Shown here one piece after another: positions 25,989 to 36,017 of a DNA stretch of 36,017 bases. The stretch comes from Deltaproteobacteria bacterium (GTDB taxonomy: Bacteria; Desulfobacterota; Syntrophobacteria; BM002): NCBI GenBank assembly GCA_020347625.1, contig CP070735.1:2358685-2394701 (forward strand), given 5' to 3'. Both the position numbers and the translations under genes were made by a program. The notes below the pieces were generated by a model. The model did not search any database. It was not told the origin of the DNA and worked only from the letters and a program-made list of their open reading frames with translations. How positions within the stretch are numbered: position 1 is the first letter of the stretch; every line of letters begins with the position of its first letter.

Positions 25989-26942
25989 CTATCGGAAACC
26001 GCCTTTGCGGTATAACCGCCAGGAGAGCACACAGACTGATAACAGCGGATGCCGCCGCAAACGAGGAGTCAATTCTTCCTTTACCCCCGTATGCCGTTCT
26101 ATCTTCCACAGGATATAGTCCACTCCTCCTGCGAAGGTAGACAGACCCTTCAGAAGTCGCAAGACCGATAGCACTTTACCCTGCAACGCGCGCACCGCCC
26201 ATGCCAAGCGTCCAAATTGACGCATCCGGGCCGGTATACGTGCGTGATAGTAGACAGGGGTAGAATTCGTATCAACTTCTACAGGAAATGGGACCGCTGG
26301 CATGGCGGCGCGGGTCAGTTGCTCGTAATGCTCTTTTGAAGCGTCATAAAGATGGGTGAGGTTATCTGCTTGCTCTGCCCTGAGTTCGGCCCCGTAGCTG
26401 AGCGAGAGGCCTTTTGCCCATAGTTCTCGGGCTGTGAAGCGCTCCTCCACCTGGGGCAGCACTCGAGTGATGAAGGTAATAACAGCCTGTGCTAATGCCG
26501 CCTGTAGTTGTTCTGCGGCCTGTTCGTTGCGGGTATACAGTATCCCAGCAGGCTGAGCAAACCGCCCCCACAGATAGGAATGAAACCAACGCATCGAAGT
26601 ACCCCTTCGAAAGTCCCTGAGTGAGAGCACCGCATATTTGGCGCGCACTATGCGGTCTTCGAAAGGCAGTTCGAGATAAAACACATTTGGGGGCAGTAGT
26701 TTGTTCAGGAAGGGTTGCACGCGGTCACGGTAGGCTGAGCTGTAGCTGTCCACCAACAGGTAAAGGTCGACGAGTCCCTCACTATCGTCACCCGTGCGCA
26801 AACATGAGCCGTAAAATAAGAGGGCTTGGGCAGATTCGCCGTAGCGGACGCGGATTTCTTCAGCCAAGGCCCGCACTCCGGGAGGAGTGGGCAACGAAGA
26901 TTGCCGGCTGATCAGGGTGAGAAGTTGAGAAAGTTTGGGCAC
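25989..26942 (-). CDS. Tam41-like CTP:phosphatidate cytidylyltransferase (nucleotidyltransferase fold)
   Basis: The 317-aa protein has LLFYGSCLRT (42-50; YGS at 44-46) then VDLYLLVDSY (Asp59, Asp65), the nucleotidyltransferase core. Later segments AKYAVLS (101-107), HSYLWGRFAQPAGIL (121-135) and the helix ending LSLSYGAELR (179-188) match mitochondrial Tam41, as I remember it: IKYGVIS, YIAGRLQKPVKI, AGLSYSGDFR. Tam41 makes CDP-diacylglycerol from phosphatidate and CTP. The start is GTG, two bases after the lipid kinase stop, so it is the last gene of a three-gene operon. The product is predicted to activate the phosphorylated lipid made by that kinase. C-terminal 90 residues are basic and helical. 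Confidence 0.7.
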   Translation of the reverse strand: MPKLSQLLTLISRQSSLPTPPGVRALAEEIRVRYGESAQALLFYGSCLRTGDDSEGLVDLYLLVDSYSSAYRDRVQPFLNKLLPPNVFYLELPFEDRIVRAKYAVLSLRDFRRGTSMRWFHSYLWGRFAQPAGILYTRNEQAAEQLQAALAQAVITFITRVLPQVEERFTARELWAKGLSLSYGAELRAEQADNLTHLYDASKEHYEQLTRAAMPAVPFPVEVDTNSTPVYYHARIPARMRQFGRLAWAVRALQGKVLSVLRLLKGLSTFAGGVDYILWKIERHTGVKEELTPRLRRHPLLSVCVLSWRLYRKGGFR

Positions 26943-26944
26943 GA

Positions 26945-28000
26945 TTACAACCGCAGAAATGACGCCTGGCCACCGTCTTGCACCACCACGGGTCCTAGTC
27001 GAGCATCAGGCGTGTACAATTCGCCATCCAGAGTGAAACCACTATCGAACGTCAGCCTCACCTCATGAACGTTATGGCTGAAGTAGCCGTTTTCCGTAGT
27101 ACCATGGCGGCCCTTTCGCCCCCGCAGCAATGAAGCTAGTGCCCTGAACAAATATTGAGGGCGGGCACTGATGGCGGTGTAGTGGAGTGGCGCCTTTTCT
27201 GTTCCCCAAAATGGGCGCAGCCCAAAAACCAACCGTTCAAGCGTGCTGACTATTATTAGCAGGCAGTCCACTTGTACCGGGGGGTGTCGGTCCAATGCTA
27301 TGGTCATAGGCACTGGGGTCACATAGTCACTTTTTCTTCGTGTCAGCGCCAACAGGAATCTGGCCAAGGTAAGCCCAGGAGCCAATGAGCCGTACACGCC
27401 AAGCGTATACACTTTGCTGTGAGTAAATCGGATTCCCTGATAGATTCCGGCCGCCCCGAAAATCATTCCATAAAGAGGCCCCTGATTGACTGCTCCCTGC
27501 ACACGCAAGACCGGTCTTTCAACGATGGCAGGGTCACCCGTTCTGGTGTGCGCCCAAGTGAAGAGCTTCTGCAACGCCCGTTTCCGGGACCCCTTTAAAC
27601 CCACATCCCTGGCGGTAGAGCTGTCGGTGCCCGAGCGCAAGATTGCCAGCAGTGGCAACTTTCCAAAAGGTCGGCGGTGGAACAATGCCGTCAGCACCGC
27701 CTGTGTGGTGCCGTCGCCGCCGTTTACTGCCACTACGTCTACGCTGTTGTGGGCAAAGTCAACCAGTGCCGATGCTACATCTGCCGGTGTCTGCACCTCA
27801 CGGTGGATTGCCTGCGGCTGACCAGCCAAAAACGCTCGAACCTCGTCCAAACCTTTACGGTTACCCCTACTAAGCGGGTTGCTGAGTACTCCCACACGCA
27901 GCGTTCGGCCAGCATTAAAAATCTCTGGCGAGCGGTCAATTGGCTTTTCCGTTTGTGTGAGGAACCATTCTGAATTGGTGGCTGGTCGGCCACTATTCAT
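26945..28000 (-). CDS. Diacylglycerol kinase-family lipid kinase (possible ceramide kinase)
   Basis: The 351-aa protein has the DAGK catalytic fold: VLSNPLSRGN (38-47), VNGGDGTTQAVL (92-103, ATP-binding) and LRSGTDSSTARDVG (121-134), where diacylglycerol kinases usually read GTxNDxAR. A C-terminal beta domain has FTLDGELYT, the usual position of a substrate-site Asp-Gly-Glu. It would phosphorylate the hydroxyl of a lipid with ATP. The ATG follows AGGGGG and overlaps the upstream CDP-alcohol phosphatidyltransferase gene by eight bases. The neighbouring activation and transfer genes suggest a dedicated headgroup pathway; I recall a similar kinase acting on ceramide in Caulobacter (CpgB). Confidence 0.85.
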   Translation of the reverse strand: MNSGRPATNSEWFLTQTEKPIDRSPEIFNAGRTLRVGVLSNPLSRGNRKGLDEVRAFLAGQPQAIHREVQTPADVASALVDFAHNSVDVVAVNGGDGTTQAVLTALFHRRPFGKLPLLAILRSGTDSSTARDVGLKGSRKRALQKLFTWAHTRTGDPAIVERPVLRVQGAVNQGPLYGMIFGAAGIYQGIRFTHSKVYTLGVYGSLAPGLTLARFLLALTRRKSDYVTPVPMTIALDRHPPVQVDCLLIIVSTLERLVFGLRPFWGTEKAPLHYTAISARPQYLFRALASLLRGRKGRHGTTENGYFSHNVHEVRLTFDSGFTLDGELYTPDARLGPVVVQDGGQASFLRL

Positions 28001-29222
28001 AACTGCCCCCTGAGGTGGTGCTTTGACGTGTGAACAGCCTTACCGCTAGCGACCTTTTGTCAATACCTTGACCAATGTCTTGCAACCAGGTCCGCAAAGG
28101 ACCAGAAATATTCCGTTCATGCCAGGCCATGACCAGCCGCAATAGCAGGAAAAGGCTGGTCAACACCGTCCAGATGGCCACGGCCTCTAACCCCAGGTCA
28201 GGCCGACCCAACACAGCACTAATTGTCAAAAGGATCAGGTTAGGGTTACGCCTGCCGGTGATCAGCCTGAAGTAAGAATCTGTCGGACGCCAGCAGAATA
28301 TCCCAAAATTGCCCAGCCGCAGTTTAAAGGTGAGCTCAACAAGACGTCCCACGATATAACCGACCACGATCAGCCAGAGCATCGTATTCAGCGTCAGCCC
28401 CGGAACAGCAGGCTGGAATTGCGTTAGCCCAAGACCCCAGGCAATGTACCATAATGGCGGATGTATCAGGTCAATGGCGTGATCGAAAATATCACCAAAC
28501 CGGCTGGAGGTCACGGTCACCCGGGCCAGTTTGCCGTCCACCGTATCAAGAAAAGTCATCAGCCAACCAATCAACAGACCCCAGCCATATATGCCGTAAA
28601 AGAAAAATATCCCGGCGATCACAACCAGAAACAGACTCGCGATGGTTACGTGGTTGGGCCGAAATCCATAGCGAGCACACACTCCAGTGGCCCATCGCGC
28701 CGGGCGGGGCCACACCCACTTGGTGACCAGGTCGGTCACACCCTTATAAGACCAGGAAAAAAGTAGCTTTTCCAGATCGCGGCGATTTTCCGAAGAGATT
28801 GGTAATACGAAAACCGGATCCACCTTGCGCAGACGTTCGTCAAAAGATGAAGATAAGGTTTCAGGGGTCTCAATACGGACACCCTTCAGATCCTGCGAGC
28901 TGGCAGCTCCAGATAGAACGTCCCGCGCCTGCTGCGCTAAATTGGACGAAACATGCGCTGCAACCTCCTCTGCTGAAGACACCTGAAGAACTATGTTTTC
29001 CATCTTTGCCAGGCTCTTAATCACACGGTCGTCGTACAGGTAATCGCCGCGCAGAAGAAGGGCGGAGCCTTCTTTGGGAATAGACTCCAGATTTTCAACG
29101 ATCTCGGTGACACCAGCACGTTCCAGCACGCGTTCTAACCGCTGGCGAGACGAAAGTTCCCAGAGTCGCACTGCGCTTTCTTCAAAAATGTAAGCGTATA
29201 TGGACACAATCCTGTTCCTCAT
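27993..29222 (-). CDS. CDP-alcohol phosphatidyltransferase with an unusual N-terminal domain
   Basis: The 409-aa membrane enzyme carries the complete family motif D-x2-DG-x2-AR-x8-G-x3-D-x3-D: Asp226, Asp229, Gly230, Ala233, Arg234, Gly243, Asp247 and Asp251 in FLDTVDGKLAR...RFGDIFDHAID. Several hydrophobic helices flank it. Residues 1-150 (LERAGVTEIVENLES..., LLLRGDYLYDDRVIKSL) look like the middle of a sugar/inositol-phosphate nucleotidyltransferase lacking its GxGxR nucleotide loop. The enzyme would transfer a phospholipid unit from CDP-lipid, or a CDP-alcohol, to an acceptor. The ATG at 29222 has no ribosome site; a GTG at 29207 has AGGA eight bases upstream. First gene of the operon with the lipid kinase and the Tam41-like gene. 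Confidence 0.88.
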   Translation of the reverse strand: MRNRIVSIYAYIFEESAVRLWELSSRQRLERVLERAGVTEIVENLESIPKEGSALLLRGDYLYDDRVIKSLAKMENIVLQVSSAEEVAAHVSSNLAQQARDVLSGAASSQDLKGVRIETPETLSSSFDERLRKVDPVFVLPISSENRRDLEKLLFSWSYKGVTDLVTKWVWPRPARWATGVCARYGFRPNHVTIASLFLVVIAGIFFFYGIYGWGLLIGWLMTFLDTVDGKLARVTVTSSRFGDIFDHAIDLIHPPLWYIAWGLGLTQFQPAVPGLTLNTMLWLIVVGYIVGRLVELTFKLRLGNFGIFCWRPTDSYFRLITGRRNPNLILLTISAVLGRPDLGLEAVAIWTVLTSLFLLLRLVMAWHERNISGPLRTWLQDIGQGIDKRSLAVRLFTRQSTTSGGSYE

Positions 29223-29270
29223 TCAGTTTGAAGAATTCACGAGAAGCGTGAGCGTGAAGACGCATGGCAA

Positions 29271-29298
29271 AAAATAACGTACTATTGTATATTGTCAA
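29271..29298 (-). promoter_or_regulatory. Possible sigma70-type promoter for the lipid headgroup operon
   Basis: On the minus strand TTGACA (29298-29293) is followed after 16 bases by TATTTT (29276-29271). The -35 box is perfect and the -10 box matches four of six. It lies about 50 bases before the start of the CDP-alcohol phosphatidyltransferase gene, in the gap divergent from the phosphoesterase gene. Confidence 0.5.
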
Positions 29299-29369
29299 TA
29301 CGATTTCTGTAAAGCCCGCTGGACCAAAGGCCTGCAACTGCAACCGTTGGAAACTTGGGGCTAACAACC

Positions 29370-30311
29370 ATGGAAGATACTTTCACGCTTGCCCACCTCT
29401 CCGACCTTCATCTGTCTTCTCTGGACGGCGTCGCGGCGCGTGACCTGCTGAATAAACGGGTGTACGGCTATCTGATGTGGCAACTGCGGAGACGTTCGGA
29501 GCACCGGGGCGAGGTGCTGGAAGCCTTGGTCCGAGACCTGCAGTCTACTAACCCGGATCACATCGCCATCACTGGAGATTTGACCCACCTCGGTCTGCCC
29601 ATTGAGTTCCAAAAGGCAGCGCAATGGCTGCAGTCACTGGGTCCGCCCTCGCAGATAACCGTCATACCTGGAAACCACGACAGCTATGTCAAGACTCCTT
29701 GGGACCGCACCTTTGCCTTTTGGGCAAGCTACATGGTCTCCGATTCAATGCAGTTCCTTGCAGGAGAGGGCTCAAATCCCAACGCCACCTTTCCCAGCTT
29801 GCGGGTGCGAGGCAAAACGGCGTTAATCGGAATCTGCACCGCTCGACCCAGTGCTCCTTTTCTCGCCGTCGGCAGTGTCGGCCAACTACAATTGGAGAAG
29901 CTGGAAAAGATCTTCGCGGAGACTGGCCAACAACAGTTGTTACGGGTCGTGCTCATGCACCACCCACCCGTTAAGGGAACGGTGAGCTGGCGTAAGCGGC
30001 TCACAGACGGAGCCACATTCCGTTCGGTTTTAGCAAGGCATGGGGCAGAGCTGGTTTTGCACGGTCACGCCCATCGTACTTCCTTGACCCAGCTCCAGGT
30101 ACCTGGGGGAATAGCTCCAGCTGTGGGCGTGCCGTCAGCATCATCGCTGGGTCGCAAATTTAGGCGCCGTGCTCGGTACCATATTTACCATCTGTCTCAC
30201 GACTCTCAGGGACGGGAGATACGACTCTCGGTTCGCTGCTATTCACCGGCAGAGGGTCGTTTTACTCTGGAGGGTGAAAGACAGTTGAGACTGCCGCAGC
30301 CAGCTTTATGA
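29370..30311 (+). CDS. Calcineurin-like metallophosphoesterase
   Basis: The 313-aa protein has the full dinuclear metal set: LSDLHLSS (Asp12, His14), ITGDLTH, PGNHDSY, MHHPP and HGHAH. This matches the family that contains cyclic-nucleotide, Nudix-like and phospholipid-intermediate phosphatases. There is no signal peptide. The ATG at 29370 is 9 to 10 bases after GGGG; a TTG at 29355 is less likely. It is divergent from the lipid headgroup operon, so a role as a phosphatase in the same pathway, for example removing a phosphate from a phosphorylated headgroup intermediate, is a reasonable inference only. Confidence 0.88.
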   Translation: MEDTFTLAHLSDLHLSSLDGVAARDLLNKRVYGYLMWQLRRRSEHRGEVLEALVRDLQSTNPDHIAITGDLTHLGLPIEFQKAAQWLQSLGPPSQITVIPGNHDSYVKTPWDRTFAFWASYMVSDSMQFLAGEGSNPNATFPSLRVRGKTALIGICTARPSAPFLAVGSVGQLQLEKLEKIFAETGQQQLLRVVLMHHPPVKGTVSWRKRLTDGATFRSVLARHGAELVLHGHAHRTSLTQLQVPGGIAPAVGVPSASSLGRKFRRRARYHIYHLSHDSQGREIRLSVRCYSPAEGRFTLEGERQLRLPQPAL

Positions 30312-30326
30312 AGTCTAAAAACATGT

Positions 30327-30389
30327 TGGAGTAATGGAGTGGTGGAGCACTGAAAATATCAAATTCCAAGCACCAAATTCCAATATCCA
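30327..30389. repeat. TGGAG octamers with an inverted CCAAATTCC partner
   Basis: Three octamers, TGGAGTAA, TGGAGTGG and TGGAGCAC (30327-30350), are followed by two 14-base units AAATTCCAAGCACC and AAATTCCAATATCC ending near 30388. The second set is loosely the reverse complement of the first, so transcripts from either convergent gene (phosphoesterase or lptG) could fold back here. Confidence 0.55.
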
Positions 30390-30407
30390 AAGACAAAGGG
30401 ATGTTCG

Positions 30408-31475
30408 TTAAGGAACGCGGCGTATTAGCCAGAAGGCAACGAGCAGGATGGCAGTCACGGGTGCCAATGTGGTGAGCCCCGGATGGAGATTGAGCAGCAG
30501 TCCCAGACGGGCAATGATCTGATTGGCTAAATAGAATGCCAGCCCCGCCATGGCGCCCATCATTATTCTCCGTCCTGCAGTCGTCCCTCGGGGTGGCCCG
30601 AATACAAACGGCAGTGAAAGGAGAACCATAGCACCTGTGGTCAATGGTAGGGCCAGTTTTTGCCATAGAGCCAATATATAGCGATCGGCATTCTGTCCCC
30701 TCTCCCGCAACGTCTGGACGTACTGGTATAAATCGGAAGGTGACAGGCTGTCTGGCGGAAGTTCAAGTATATTGACCTGTTCTGAATCCAGGAAAGATTT
30801 CAGTGTCAGGCTTGGAAGGTGGCGTGTGGTGATACCTTGTTCCCCAACTATCTTCTGTTCGATATCCCTGAGCACCCATCGCTTGTCATCAGTGATGTCC
30901 GCTTCGCGAGCGTGAGTAAAAATGCGAAGCCGCCCATCTGGATCACGCACATATATATCGATATCGACTGCAGTTTCACCCCGAAGGCTACCACCAACCC
31001 GGACGAAAGAATCACCATGGCGAGCCCAAAACCCCTGTTTCGTCACCAGGATTCCCGGCTCAGATAGTGCCTGGGAGCGGCGCATCCGTCCGTCCTGCTC
31101 CATGGGGGGAACAACGAACTCTGCGAGCAGGCCAGTAGCCAGCATGAGAAGCAAGGTGGTGGCTAGAACTGACCAGCAAATCCGCAAAACTGATAACCCA
31201 ACAGCCCTCATGGCTATAAGTTCATTTTTGTCGGCCAGCAAACCCAGGGCAACGATGCTGCCCAGCAAAGTGCTTATCGGCACCAGATCCAGAAGTCGTC
31301 TGGGCATTGTCAGGGCGACAAACAAAGCAGCATCCTGCAGTTGGTATTGTCCCTTGCCAATTTCGTCCAGCTCCGCCACAAATTCAAGAAAACTGAACAA
31401 AGAAGCCAATATCACCAGGACAAGGAAGAAGCCCCATAGGAAGTTTATACCTATGTAACGATCAAGAGTTCTCAT
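30408..31475 (-). CDS. lptG: LPS export permease LptG
   Basis: LptG is one of two inner-membrane permeases of the LptB2FG transporter that extracts LPS from the inner membrane. From the ATG at 31475 (AGGTG eight to nine bases upstream) the protein is 355 aa. It opens MRTLDRYIGINFLWGFFLVLVILASLF, has the coupling-helix motif KNELIAMRAVGLSVLRI, a periplasmic beta-jellyroll domain in the middle and three C-terminal helices (MVLLSLPFVFG...). The frame is open to 31523, but that adds a hydrophilic leader before the first membrane helix. Second gene after lptF, 60 bases apart. Confidence 0.94.
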   Translation of the reverse strand: MRTLDRYIGINFLWGFFLVLVILASLFSFLEFVAELDEIGKGQYQLQDAALFVALTMPRRLLDLVPISTLLGSIVALGLLADKNELIAMRAVGLSVLRICWSVLATTLLLMLATGLLAEFVVPPMEQDGRMRRSQALSEPGILVTKQGFWARHGDSFVRVGGSLRGETAVDIDIYVRDPDGRLRIFTHAREADITDDKRWVLRDIEQKIVGEQGITTRHLPSLTLKSFLDSEQVNILELPPDSLSPSDLYQYVQTLRERGQNADRYILALWQKLALPLTTGAMVLLSLPFVFGPPRGTTAGRRIMMGAMAGLAFYLANQIIARLGLLLNLHPGLTTLAPVTAILLVAFWLIRRVP

Positions 31476-31535
31476 AGATTTTGCACCTGTGGAACAACTT
31501 CCAACGCACAAGCGGTCTATCAATTATGGACCGCC

Positions 31536-32633
31536 TTACTTGGCGGAAAATCGGCGCCAGGTGCGCCGCGATCGAAACACTAGACTTGGCTGCAATAGCA
31601 GAGCCAGCAATAAACCAGCCAGCAAAGCTTGAACCCACCAAATACCTGGTATTGAGCCCACCACCTCCTGCTCCACCCAGGTTTTAGCCATAGCGCCGAT
31701 GTTGTAGTAGATAGCGTAGACCAGAACAGCCGCAACCACCTTGGCATACTTGCCCTGGCGAGGGGACGCACGACTCAGAGGAACTCCGAGCAGCGCAAGA
31801 AGCATGGTTGAAAGAGGGGTGGAAAGGCGCCACTGCAGTTCCGCTATATCCTTGGGTTTGTCCGAGCGGGCCAAATCCATAGTAGCCGCAGCTTTACGTT
31901 TGTACCCAATTGGCTCTATCTCCTCGGGCCGCAAGGGCAGCGCGGACTGCTCGAACTTCATGATGTAGCCCCGGTCTCCGTGGCGGGGAAATTCATAAAG
32001 GTACCCGTCCAAGATCACCATTATGTCTTTTCCGCTCTTCTCATCCACAGCCTGATAGGCTTCCTTTGCGTAGATAACTTGCACCCTATCGCCACGCTCT
32101 CTTTGTATGAAAACCCCGTCCGCTCGATTCCGTTGGTGGTCAATTTCATCTGCGTAGATAATGCGGTCCCCCCGCGCAATTTCGTAAAATTTGTCGGCTT
32201 CCCATCGACTGATATCCAGTTCAGCCCGCGCTTGAGCCTTCAGCCTGTAACTTGCCTGGTACGCCCATGGACGAGCGTACAGCGATAAACTTGCAACTAT
32301 AGCCGCCACCAGCAGGGACAATCTGAAAACCGCCTTCAATACTCGGGTGACACTAACACCACTGGCCTGCAAAGCTGTCATCTCTGAGTCCGTGTACAGT
32401 CGCCCCAAAGCAATTACAACGGAGAGGTAGAGCGTCGTGGGCAGTAGAACCTCCAGGGCGATAACGACTTTAAGCAGGACCAGGGATATGACCGTCGTCC
32501 CAGAGAGCAGACCGCTTACTGCATCAGCCAGGTAGCGAGCTGCACTGTAGCTGGCAAAAATGATCACCAAAACCGTGCATATCACCACAAGCGGCTTGAT
32601 GATTTCTCGAATTAGATAGCGGTCTATGATCAA
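31536..32633 (-). CDS. lptF: LPS export permease LptF
   Basis: Partner permease of LptG. The 365-aa protein starts at a TTG (32633) that gives MIIDRYLIREIIKPLVVICTV, as expected for LptF, with AGGG eight bases upstream. Landmarks are the coupling motif DSEMTALQASGVSVTRVLKAVF, a periplasmic jellyroll domain with FYEIARGDRIIYADE and the C-terminal helices from STMLLALLGVPLSRA. Length and helix arrangement are normal. No lptB, lptA or lptC is nearby. A plausible promoter lies 60-90 bases upstream. Confidence 0.94.
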   Translation of the reverse strand: MIIDRYLIREIIKPLVVICTVLVIIFASYSAARYLADAVSGLLSGTTVISLVLLKVVIALEVLLPTTLYLSVVIALGRLYTDSEMTALQASGVSVTRVLKAVFRLSLLVAAIVASLSLYARPWAYQASYRLKAQARAELDISRWEADKFYEIARGDRIIYADEIDHQRNRADGVFIQRERGDRVQVIYAKEAYQAVDEKSGKDIMVILDGYLYEFPRHGDRGYIMKFEQSALPLRPEEIEPIGYKRKAAATMDLARSDKPKDIAELQWRLSTPLSTMLLALLGVPLSRASPRQGKYAKVVAAVLVYAIYYNIGAMAKTWVEQEVVGSIPGIWWVQALLAGLLLALLLQPSLVFRSRRTWRRFSAK

Positions 32634-32691
32634 AGTAACTGCCCTACAGAATCTTGCCGACCTTGCTGCTTTCTCGAGTTAATTACCATTA

Positions 32692-32719
32692 AACATATCG
32701 AGAGTACTTGCACTGCCAA
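32692..32719 (-). promoter_or_regulatory. Possible promoter for lptF-lptG
   Basis: On the minus strand TTGGCA (32719-32714) is followed after 16 bases by TATGTT (32697-32692). Five and four of six bases match consensus. The start site would be about 50 bases before the lptF TTG. Confidence 0.4.
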
Positions 32720-32984
32720 GCCGACCCAAAAATTTTTGAACAGAACCTTGAATCTGCTCTTTTCTCTTAAAGGTACCGACGATCTCGTCCGTAAATGATA
32801 TGAGGTTTATTTACAGAGATCAATGCGGTAGTCCGCCAAGTTTTGCTTTTCCTCAAGTGCGGCCTGAGGAAATACGTCGCACTCGGGTACTTTACCAGTA
32901 GTTGATTTCTCAGCCAACCACATTCGTGGCATGACCTCGTCTCTTCCTCTTTGCTTGAAAAATGCTACAGCGAGCGCATTCCCC

Positions 32985-33002
32985 GTCCCGCCCTGGCGGG
33001 AC
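32985..33002. repeat. GC-rich 8-bp inverted repeat
   Basis: GTCCCGCC-CT-GGCGGGAC is a perfect dyad with a 2-base centre. In RNA it would fold as a 7-bp stem with a four-base loop. No T run follows on either strand. It may be an operator, or one copy of a dispersed palindromic element. Confidence 0.5.
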
Positions 33003-33191
33003 CGGAGGGAGCTTCACTGTTTCAGCCCAGTAAGCCCCCCCATTCTGCTTGACAGTGAACATATCATTTTCTATTTTGTCAACAACTGTGAGAATGAATG
33101 GTGCTTTCCTTATTGGACATGCGTTCTGCGGCGACTTGATGTCGCATGAATCAACATGGTCCCGCAAACAACCAAGAGAGGAATAAACCAT

Positions 33192-34007
33192 ATGAAAGCG
33201 GTAATCTTGAGTGCGGGTCAGGGGCGACGGCTGTTGCCGCTCACTGTTGAATCTCCCAAATGCATATTGAACATCGATGGACAGTCTCTGATCGAGTGGC
33301 AAATAGATGAACTGGCCAAATGTGACATTGAACAGGTGACGGTAGTTGTCGGCTTTGGAGCCGAGCAGGTGGAACAACTTCTTAGCACCCGTTATGGGCC
33401 GCATCGGGTGCGGATTCTCTGTAACACGGCTTATGCCGACACGGACAACTTGGTCAGTTGCTGGGTTGCGCGCGAGGAGATGACCGAAGACTTTATTCTG
33501 TTGAACGGTGATACCTTATTCGAGGCGTCCGTGCTTCAGCGTTTGCTCCAGGCGCCGGTTCGACCCGTAACTCTGGTTACAGACCACAAGTTCAGCTACG
33601 ATGCCGATGACATGAAGGTTGCATTGGAAGGTGGCAGACTAGTCAGAATCGGCAAAGATCTCCCTCCTGACAACGTAGACGGAGAATCCATCGGGATGAT
33701 TCTCTTCCGCGGCGAGGGACCGACTCTATTCCGAGCGGCCATCGACCAGGCCTTGCTTGATCCTGCCGCACGCAAGCAGTGGTATCTGTCTGTCATCGAC
33801 CAGATGGCCCAGTCAATGCCAGTGTGGACATGTTCCATAGAAGGGTTGCAATGGTGTGAAGTGGACTATCCTGCCGATCTCCAGCAGGCGCAGCAGGTGG
33901 TAAGAGTGTGTGCTAACAACAAGGAACTATTGGGTGGGACGGGTGAAAGTTGCCGTATTACGGGCTACACCCGGCTTGCTGTACCTCCCAGGCGTCGTCG
34001 GCGCTAA
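33192..34007 (+). CDS. Sugar/choline-phosphate nucleotidyltransferase (LicC-like)
   Basis: From the ATG at 33192, about nine bases after GAGGA, the protein is 271 aa. It has the nucleotide-binding loop ILSAGQGRRLLPLT (residues 5-18), SPKCIL with Lys23, the segment YADTDNLVSCWVAREEM and the metal-binding LLNGDTLFE (Asp107). This arrangement is that of phosphocholine cytidylyltransferase-like enzymes, which make CDP-activated small alcohols or sugars. The last 20 residues are basic and unlike the family. It could supply a CDP-activated headgroup for the nearby phosphatidyltransferase, but the substrate cannot be read from the sequence. Convergent with a second nucleotidyltransferase gene. Confidence 0.85.
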   Translation: MKAVILSAGQGRRLLPLTVESPKCILNIDGQSLIEWQIDELAKCDIEQVTVVVGFGAEQVEQLLSTRYGPHRVRILCNTAYADTDNLVSCWVAREEMTEDFILLNGDTLFEASVLQRLLQAPVRPVTLVTDHKFSYDADDMKVALEGGRLVRIGKDLPPDNVDGESIGMILFRGEGPTLFRAAIDQALLDPAARKQWYLSVIDQMAQSMPVWTCSIEGLQWCEVDYPADLQQAQQVVRVCANNKELLGGTGESCRITGYTRLAVPPRRRRR

Positions 34008-34041
34008 ACAATGGATCGAGAGGATTCCTTGGTGTTGTGCC

Positions 34042-34851
34042 CTATGCTTTAGACCGTTGGTCAGCCACGATTTTTTCAACGAGCTTCCAGTCATCGACCG
34101 TATCGACATCTATACCAGCTTCCGGAAAAGGCATCAAAACTGCGCCAGCACTGAGTCCCAAACGGCGCGATATCTGCTTTAGACCCTCCGCAAGAGTCAG
34201 TCGACCTAATAAGTAACGCAAGACCGCCGTCCAACCCAAAACACTAATCACCCGTAAGGTTTTCTTGCGCTGGCTCTCTACCCTACGCCAAAAGTCAGCT
34301 GCAACCCGTGCACGAGGGCTCAGGAAACCAAAAAGGTTGCAGGAGCAGTAACCACCATCCTGCAATTTCGTCACTGTTCTTTGGGTCTCTGGGTATGTGC
34401 TGGCTACCAATTCATACGACACCAAGCCAACCGCTATGTCGCAACCAGAATTGCGTGCCTCGCGACAAAAGTAGTCCACCATCTCGCCACTCAGCAGTGC
34501 ATGGTCGGCAGTCGTTACTAGCACCGGGGAGTCGTCAGGAAGCGTCTGCAACACGTGGTAGGTGCTTGAGCTTGGTGTTGCCTGATTCTCAACCCACTTC
34601 ACCTCGCCTGAAGTGACTAGCCCACTGAGTTCCGCTTCCTGATCTATGGCGGCCTGATGAGGTCCACATAATATGCGGCTGTCTATTTCTTGAGCTGCAT
34701 TTAGGGCTTCCAGCACCCGCAGCACCATAGGAACACCGCCTAGAGGGACTAAAGCTTTACAGCAGACACCGGCGGTCTGGACCAGCGGATCGTCGGGCGC
34801 ACGATCCGCCGCAAGTACCAATGCAGCAAAAGCTCTTTTATCATTGCTCAT
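34042..34851 (-). CDS. MobA-like nucleotidyltransferase family protein
   Basis: The 269-aa protein has a GT-A-type nucleotidyltransferase start, AALVLAADRAPDDPL, followed by GVCCKALVPLGGVPMVLRVLEAL, then LVTTADHALLS with the expected metal-binding Asp. The usual glycine-rich GxGxR loop is replaced by DRAPDD, so nucleotide binding may differ. The C-terminal part has an unusual helical insert (LGWTAVLRYLLGRLTLAEGLKQISRRLG) before GIDVDTVDDW. Its ATG has no strong ribosome site. I cannot name a substrate; the neighbours suggest lipid or headgroup nucleotide chemistry. Confidence 0.75.
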   Translation of the reverse strand: MSNDKRAFAALVLAADRAPDDPLVQTAGVCCKALVPLGGVPMVLRVLEALNAAQEIDSRILCGPHQAAIDQEAELSGLVTSGEVKWVENQATPSSSTYHVLQTLPDDSPVLVTTADHALLSGEMVDYFCREARNSGCDIAVGLVSYELVASTYPETQRTVTKLQDGGYCSCNLFGFLSPRARVAADFWRRVESQRKKTLRVISVLGWTAVLRYLLGRLTLAEGLKQISRRLGLSAGAVLMPFPEAGIDVDTVDDWKLVEKIVADQRSKA

Positions 34852-35191
34852 GTAACTTTATCTCTTGCGCCAGTGAAGAATCCAAACCCATAGGATCTGG
34901 CTTTGAGTTGGCCCCCAAGGGCGTTTTAGAGTCTTTTCTTAATGCGATAGTCAGCTGGAGTAATGGAGTGGTGGAGTAATGGAGTAATGTAAAAACCTCT
35001 TAAGATTAAATCTTTGGGTTATAGCTTATTCCAACACTCCAATACTCCAGTACTCCAAAACCGCTTGACGTGCCTTCCGGCAAAACCATTGAAACTTGAC
35101 CTACCGCAAAGGACTAGGGGTTCTTTGACCAAATAATTCCGCTGAAAGAACAGCCTGGTTGGCCACGGTGACCATCACACACAGATGCCTC
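34852..35191. other. Intergenic region with an octamer inverted repeat
   Basis: These 340 bases between two minus-strand genes hold four TGGAG octamers and an inverted ACTCC array (34956-35057). The rest shows no gene, promoter or terminator that I would defend. Confidence 0.55.
34956..35057. repeat. TGGAG octamer array and its inverted copy
   Basis: Four tandem octamers, TGGAGTAA, TGGAGTGG, TGGAGTAA, TGGAGTAA, fill 34956-34987. After about 40 bases, 35029-35057 contains ACTCCAAT-type octamers. The reverse complement of the second array matches the first at 23 of 29 positions, forming an imperfect hairpin. Confidence 0.7.
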
Positions 35192-36017
35192 TTAGGCCAG
35201 TTCCTTACTGTAAATGCGGTAACGTTTATAAGCAATGCCCCCGATGGACTCGATGATGTTTTGCATGCCAATGTTGTCATCGAGAATCCAGGACATTTCC
35301 GCCTCCAGCACACCACGTCTGACGGCGGGCGCGCGCACTGCTTGTATTACCATTAAGGCAAGCGCCCCGCCCAAAAGGCCCTTCTGGTAGCGTTTGCGTA
35401 CACCCATAAGGGCAACCCGGACTGATTTCGGATGAGCAACTTTAAGACGCCAGAACAGTTTGAGCCAGCCGTAAGGCAAAAGTCTCCCGTTAAGGTCCTG
35501 AATAGCTTCATTGACGTTCGGCAAGGCCACCATCATGGCTGCGGGAACGCCCTCCACTTCTGCAATCTGAATGTAGTCTTCACGCACCAAGAGTTTCAAG
35601 GTTTCGCCCAAATGCTCAAATTCTGCCTCGGTAAACGGGACAAACCCCCAGTTCTGAGACCAGGCATCTTCAAAAATATCCTGCAGTATCTTTAGGTCCT
35701 CAGCAAAATGGGATTTACGCAACGGCCGAACACGCACGCGGCGGGATGCTCTTTTCATCGCAGCCAGCATGGCGGCGGAAAACTCGAAGTCTGTATTAAT
35801 GCGATAGGCCAGCAGGTCCTTCTCCTGGCGGTAGCCTTGTTCTTCGATCCTGGTGGCGTAGTGCGGACGGGCATGTCCCATCATGATTGATGGCGGGGTA
35901 TCATAACCTTCCACCAGCAAGCCGCATTCCTGATTAACTGACAGATTAAGGGGACCCAAAACACGACGCATTCCCTGATCGCGTAGCCATGTCTCCGCGG
36001 TATCCAGCAAGATCCGA
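35192..36017 (-). CDS. GNAT-fold acyltransferase, 5' end cut by the window edge (ceramide synthase-like)
   Basis: The frame is open to the right edge without a convincing start, so about 275 C-terminal residues are visible. They include RRVLGPLNLSVNQECGLLVEGYDTPP, MMGHARPHYATRIEEQGYRQEKDLLAYR, a central FEDAWSQNWGFVPFTEAEFEHLGETLKLL, and the acceptor-side core VALMGVRKRYQKGLLGGALALMVIQ with an acetyltransferase-like phosphopantetheine loop. The C-terminus reads EAEMSWILDDNIGMQNIIESIGGIAYKRYRIY. As I remember, this is the YghO-type group that includes the Caulobacter ceramide synthase (CCNA_01212), which N-acylates a sphingoid base. Function here is inferred from that and from the lipid kinase cluster. 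Confidence 0.65.
   Translation of the reverse strand, partial: RILLDTAETWLRDQGMRRVLGPLNLSVNQECGLLVEGYDTPPSIMMGHARPHYATRIEEQGYRQEKDLLAYRINTDFEFSAAMLAAMKRASRRVRVRPLRKSHFAEDLKILQDIFEDAWSQNWGFVPFTEAEFEHLGETLKLLVREDYIQIAEVEGVPAAMMVALPNVNEAIQDLNGRLLPYGWLKLFWRLKVAHPKSVRVALMGVRKRYQKGLLGGALALMVIQAVRAPAVRRGVLEAEMSWILDDNIGMQNIIESIGGIAYKRYRIYSKELA

Follow-up and report, generated by a model that had tools for sequence, protein, structure and literature searches.

One of the closest described counterparts of the locus analysed here is the Caulobacter crescentus cluster CC_1168–CC_1152 for the anionic sphingolipids ceramide-phosphoglycerate (CPG) and CPG2, which was published with second versions of the lipopolysaccharide (LPS) exporter components LptC, LptF and LptG (PMC11324152). 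Within this cluster, CC_1154 is needed for dihydroceramide formation, and Escherichia coli yghO (ECD_02850) has been given as its orthologue (PMC9386255). The kinase CpgB has been defined by a GGDG motif without CxxxCxxC (PMC10331486), and 11 active-site residues have been published for CpgD (PMC13228409; PMC12275187). In this study, a 36,017-nucleotide stretch (hereafter the window; positions 2358685–2394701 of contig CP070735.1, assembly GCA_020347625.1) from a Deltaproteobacteria bacterium (genome G000, scaffold C1; single scaffold, 3.22 Mb, 87.5% complete) was compared with these systems. Nine genes at window positions 25989–36016 match the half of the Caulobacter cluster assigned to decoration and export (Table 1). 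The region very probably represents the equivalent half of an anionic sphingolipid cluster of the CPG/CPG2 type that is cut off at the contig end.

Gene content of the locus

Counterparts of CC_1161, CC_1160, CC_1159, CC_1158, CC_1156/CC_1155 (lptF2/lptG2), CC_1154, CC_1153 and CC_1152 were all found in the window, and those of CC_1165–CC_1162 (aasR, cerR, acpR and spt) lie adjacent in its relatives. The locus differs from that of Caulobacter in belonging to another phylum, in its rearranged gene order and in the absence of aasR-cerR-acp-spt from the window assembly; moreover, the close relatives of the window genome lack the cpgA/cpgD pair. A preliminary description of the stretch had proposed an anionic sphingolipid cluster in which a kinase, a cytidylyltransferase and a phosphatidyltransferase lie near a GNAT protein, nucleotidyltransferases, a phosphoesterase and lptF/lptG. 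All of these genes were present where it placed them, the Tam41-like gene beginning just left of its start (26945), and the gene families, motifs and linkage agreed with the proposed (phospho)sphingolipid function. Every gene that it named was backed by Pfam and NCBIfam, except the GNAT-like open reading frame, which crosses the window end and matched neither collection. The same genes are co-located in many genomes of several phyla, and their grouping is therefore not attributable to chance.

Table 1. Predicted genes of the sphingolipid locus, in map order (window positions)
Feature	Position	Strand	Remarks
Tam41/Mmp37-like CDP-lipid synthase, CpgC (CC_1161) counterpart	25989..26942	-	PF09139 over cut-off, E 4e-6; conserved GS motif region
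LCB5/DAGK-type lipid kinase, counterpart of ceramide kinase CpgB (CC_1160)	26945..28000	-	PF00781 (DAGK_cat), E 1.7e-10
CDP-alcohol phosphotransferase, CpgA (CC_1159) counterpart	27993..29222	-	PF01066 (CDP-OH_P_transf), E 4.9e-11
Calcineurin-type phosphoesterase, CC_1158 counterpart	29355..30311	+	PF00149; same slot kept in relatives
LptG2 (second LPS-exporter permease LptG)	30408..31523	-	TIGR04408 equivalog, 356 bits, over cut-off
LptF2 (second LPS-exporter permease LptF)	31536..32633	-	TIGR04407 equivalog, 342 bits, over cut-off
CpgD-like CTP:phosphoglycerate cytidylyltransferase, CC_1152 counterpart	33192..34007	+	LicC-type matches; LicC/MobA-type
MobA/CofC-like nucleotidyltransferase, CC_1153 counterpart	34042..34851	-	PF12804; ceramide synthase gene adjoins it in most relatives
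Bacterial ceramide synthase (tandem GNAT), CC_1154/YghO counterpart	35192..36016	-	C-terminal 274 residues; 5' part beyond gap

Several proteins carry characteristic motifs or residues. The DAGK-type kinase has GGDG at residue 94 and lacks CxxxCxxC, as described for CpgB, and the CDP-alcohol phosphotransferase has the full catalytic motif DxxDGxxAR-x8-GxxxDxxxD at residue 226. For the CpgD-like protein (reading frame called at 33156–34007, likely start 33192), all 11 active-site residues have counterparts, ten of them identical and Thr93 replaced by Ser, with the spacing kept to within two residues (G12, R16, K26, T88, N90, T93, G111, D112, M147, K161 and W201 to G21, R25, K35, T96, N98, S101, G118, D119, M153, K167 and W209); this mapping was built on the published positions and not on the Caulobacter sequence. 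Met147 and Lys161 lie over the glycerate in CpgD, and their counterparts were kept in 32/35 and 33/35 cluster orthologues, respectively.

The GNAT gene is broken at base 36017 by what appears to be a scaffold gap, a run of 100 N directly past the window end (scaffold bases 2394702–2394801, starting at window position 36018), leaving the cluster incomplete in the window. Because further 100-N runs occur on this scaffold and the CDP-alcohol gene of the same-family genome G010 is split over two distant places, gene order across such gaps was not trusted. Repeated uniform 100-N runs were observed in the single-scaffold genomes G000, G006 and G010 of this family. Separately, window positions 34871–35144, between the CofC-like and GNAT genes, constitute a dispersed repeat with dozens of genomic matches (70%–94% identity). 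Of the named genomes compared by GlyA protein, Geobacter and Thermodesulfobacteriaceae records were nearest to the window genome (64%), with lower values for Nitrospirota (58%) and Pseudomonadota (56%–60%); this single-gene comparison, in which two Desulfobulbaceae reached only 54%, fits an affiliation with Desulfobacterota.

Ceramide synthase

Although the GNAT-like protein had no family match and a PDB sequence search with it gave nothing meaningful, its relationships are consistent with the ceramide synthase role that the preliminary description had assigned to it. In a 53-sequence tree, it grouped with its genus inside the clade of E. coli YghO, which also includes homologues from Pseudomonas, Roseomonas, Nitrosospira and Desulfobulbus, and no clustering with unrelated acetyltransferases was seen. 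Identity to these homologues was 50%–57% (50% over 272 residues for YghO), in comparisons in which the window protein lacks the N-terminal third encoded beyond the gap. The fold was read from a full-length orthologue in the same-genus genome G004 (391 residues, 71% identical over the shared part), whose predicted model (mean pLDDT 82) matches tandem GNAT structures in the PDB. Taken together, tree position and modelled fold support placing the window protein among the bacterial ceramide synthases.

More distant ceramide-synthase-like GNATs (approximately 34% identical) were observed in one family of the same class (L057:70–7914 in G045; L064:10675–18801 in G038), adjoining type I polyketide synthases of 2,600–2,700 residues and CerR-like reductases; some genomes also encode oxoamine synthases in frames exceeding 1,100 residues. 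These loci resemble those for polyketide synthase-derived sphingolipids (PMC12134224). In a third arrangement (L059, L063 and L065 in G051, G054 and G047, respectively), a distant GNAT occurs with an MsbA-like ABC transporter and a divergent oxoamine synthase resembling serine palmitoyltransferase (SPT), with no Cpg genes in the stretch seen.

Second LptF/LptG pair

The window genome contains four LptF/LptG genes, with the canonical two located at C1:1903388 and 1956224 and sharing only 22%–26% identity with the window pair. Because separate canonical genes are kept elsewhere, the pair in the window appears to be a dedicated second exporter and not the LPS exporter. LPS itself is presumably also produced, as an LpxC gene is present. 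Across 60 relatives, the Tam41-like gene was present in 15, and at least one member of the cluster-type second pair was found in 11 of these 15 carriers but in none of the other 45 genomes (Fisher p 4e-9, uncorrected for relatedness). An MsbA-like ABC exporter, a candidate sphingolipid flippase, was linked to the cluster in several relatives (L051:2046–3824, L055:3–1112 and L201:8937–10760).

The suggestions that sphingolipid genes surround the LPS exporter in a new arrangement and that the two lipids are perhaps co-managed were not supported. The lptF2/lptG2 genes were already described within the Caulobacter cluster (PMC11324152) and also occur in loci of E. coli, Pseudomonas, Nitrosomonas, Nitrospirales and Desulfobulbus, and the canonical lptF and lptG lie apart from the window pair. 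The cluster is real and well conserved, its arrangement is already known, and it is cut by an assembly gap.

Missing sphingoid-base genes

The genes expected to form the sphingoid base were found next to the cluster in relatives. On a gap-free contig of the same genus (G004:C434), the order is CofC, GNAT, an NMO-family gene, acyl-AMP ligase, CerR-like reductase, acyl carrier protein (ACP)-like gene and SPT. SPT also lies near the GNAT gene in G011, G012, G026 and G042, and a CerR-like reductase, dedicated ACP and acyl-ACP synthetase stand beside it in G004, G011 and G012. The SPTs of the family form one clade with those of E. coli, Pseudomonas, Nitrospirales and Geobacter, and this clade is separate from the remaining oxoamine synthases (four sequences in the tree, L075, L077, L091 and L092, are apparent wrong-frame picks with huge branches and were ignored in the reading). 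The SPT, ACP, acyl-ACP synthetase and CerR-like reductase genes that the preliminary description expected beyond the window thus occur in the same-genus genome and other relatives, whereas SPT, reductase and synthetase were not found in the window assembly. On the scaffold itself, unrelated genes (radical SAM and DinB-type polymerase) follow the 100-N gap.

Genome-wide absence of SPT had been named as a finding that would refute a sphingolipid cluster, and in the literal sense it was observed in this assembly. Lost sequence is the likely cause, because the GNAT gene is truncated and sister genomes carry SPT adjacent to it; loss at the gap is by far the simplest reading of the missing sphingoid-base genes. 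Breaks near this position recur in the genus: the G009 contig, like the window, stops within the GNAT gene, the G001 contig starts within CofC, and that of G008 stops just short of the acyl-AMP ligase. A DegT-type aminotransferase at C1:1954933 was considered as an alternative base-forming enzyme and rejected, as its sequence resembles that of an ordinary DegT-family protein and it lies far from the cluster.

Proposed pathway and alternative readings

The assignment to a CPG/CPG2-type pathway is based on gene identities, motifs and linkage observed in the window, with enzyme activities predicted by analogy with Caulobacter. SPT, a dedicated ACP, acyl-AMP ligase and CerR-like reductase (not in the assembly; adjacent in sister genomes) would generate the sphingoid base, which the GNAT protein would N-acylate towards ceramide. 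The DAGK-type kinase would convert ceramide to ceramide-1-phosphate, to which the first phosphoglycerate could be added by the Tam41-like enzyme, either alone or together with the phosphoesterase and the CofC-like nucleotidyltransferase. The CpgD-like enzyme would form CDP-glycerate, from which the CDP-alcohol phosphotransferase would add a second phosphoglycerate, and the dedicated LptF2/LptG2 pair might move the product towards the outer membrane. Both this role in transport and the order in which the CpgC, CofC-like and phosphoesterase steps follow one another are inferred here, and are unsettled even in Caulobacter.

Several points weigh against this assignment. Orthology to Caulobacter was assigned through named orthologues, published residue positions and the gene set, not by direct alignment. 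The direct SPT search of the 3.22-Mb window assembly was empty, and no alpha-oxoamine synthase was recognised by eye among all eleven of its PF00155 proteins, which appeared to be aspartate-type aminotransferases, HisC-, DapL- and GlyA-like proteins and similar. No close CerR and no acyl-AMP ligase of the cluster type were found in the assembly either (ACP was not searched for), so a complete pathway is only presumed for this organism. Furthermore, four other genomes with a close GNAT lack SPT, three of them 62%–87% complete and one (G008) rated 92%. Conceivably, the genome is truly without SPT, and the substrate of the GNAT, kinase and CDP-lipid enzymes is a different lipid, such as one with a diacylglycerol-based or other N-acylated backbone; the Caulobacter ceramide kinase also takes diacylglycerol in vitro. 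However, the assembly breaks the GNAT gene at the point past which SPT and its partners lie in a same-genus genome, and sister contigs also break nearby. Moreover, the same-genus genome G003, in which no GNAT was detected, contains a fragment of an acyl-AMP ligase with 98% identity to the G004 enzyme. We thus regard a true absence of SPT as quite improbable.

Still smaller weight can be given to two further readings. The window lptF and lptG both score as LptF and LptG equivalogs, as would be expected of a plain LPS exporter with lipid genes beside it by chance; the existence of separate canonical genes, the tracking of the cluster by the extra pair across relatives and the recurrence of this linkage in E. 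coli, Pseudomonas, Nitrosomonas and Nitrospirales render this scarcely credible. Equally, the generic family matches to archaetidylinositol-phosphate synthase and LicC could indicate an inositol- or phosphocholine-type operon, in which the LicC-like, CDP-alcohol transferase and CDP-lipid synthase genes make an ordinary glycerophospholipid. This explanation is extremely unlikely in view of the CpgD residue pattern, including the conserved Met147 and Lys161 counterparts, and the fixed linkage with ceramide synthase and SPT.

The cpgA/cpgD pair

Genome-wide searches of 34 genomes, with G002 (no cluster) and G059 (distant type) excluded from the count, found CpgA-like and CpgD-like orthologues together in 15 genomes, neither in 15 other cluster carriers and a single one in two (G010 and G058, both fragmentary). 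The co-occurrence is significant when kinship is ignored (Fisher p 9e-7) but weak after relatedness is considered: the Tam41 tree contains only 5–6 cpgA/cpgD changes and two independent pairs (starred), too few for significance. The absences are backed by local gene order, as the phosphoesterase and kinase genes adjoin without cpgA between them in G001, G005, G007, G009, G011 and G012, and lptF2 and the CofC-like gene adjoin without cpgD in G001, G008 and G009. Within the genus, both genes are present only in the window genome, and no CpgA-like orthologue was found by genome-wide searches in the other nine genomes. The two genes thus appear to come and go together.

In contrast, the CofC-like gene is present both with and without the pair. 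Its persistence without CpgA and CpgD suggests that it serves the core pathway or the formation of another head group. Tentatively, the cluster could be modular, with CpgA and CpgD forming a head-group extension swapped as a unit and the CofC-like enzyme belonging to the core, so that carriers without the pair, including other members of the window's genus where gene slots are readable, would make a different anionic sphingolipid head group with its help; we consider this possible rather than probable. Such modularity sits uneasily with the present Caulobacter scheme, which places CC_1153 in the CPG to CPG2 step; in Caulobacter, loss of CC_1153 abolishes CPG2 while CPG and ceramide both increase. 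That cpgA and cpgD are present or absent jointly lends comparative support to the proposed step with CDP-glycerate as donor, and calls into question the point at which the CofC-like enzyme acts.

Distribution in other bacteria

A scan of named genomes and plasmids revealed the same cluster in Desulfobulbus sp. Tol-SR, Desulfoprunum benzoelyticum, metagenome-assembled genomes of Geobacter and Desulfuromonadales, Nitrospirales, Nitrosomonas/Nitrosospira, Pseudomonas and Roseomonas, many of them with lptF2/lptG2. The E. coli yghO region resembles the locus in having SPT, ACP, a CerR-like epimerase, acyl-AMP ligase and an extra lptF/lptG pair beside YghO, but no CpgA, B, C or D counterparts are annotated across the surrounding 27 kb, and it contains other genes of unknown role. 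The loci of Pseudomonas sp. BYT-5 (plasmid pBYT5-2), Nitrosomonas, Nitrospirales and Desulfobulbus share largely the same gene set including lptF2/lptG2, whereas Pseudomonas has extra glycosyltransferase and aspartyl hydroxylase genes and Nitrospirales have sterol-desaturase and HIT genes. The HIT-family gene (49%–57% identical to that of Roseomonas) lies between the acyl-AMP ligase and ceramide synthase genes in L122, L124, L126, L128, L129, L137 and others (Nitrospirales and Desulfuromonadales), and in Nitrospirales the sterol-desaturase-family gene occupies the same interval; both may be further pathway members.

The preliminary description's suggestion that such a system would here be extended to Desulfobacterota was not supported as a first report, since SPT-like proteins of this phylum were reported earlier, from the Black Sea (PMC11334938); no description of a full CPG-type anionic cluster in this phylum was found in the open-licence literature. 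With these findings, the complete anionic sphingolipid pathway, including Lpt permeases of its own, extends beyond the alpha-, beta- and gamma-proteobacteria to relatives of Desulfobulbus and Geobacter and to Nitrospirota. Therefore, outer-membrane sphingolipids that can substitute for LPS may be more common in such bacteria than has been described.

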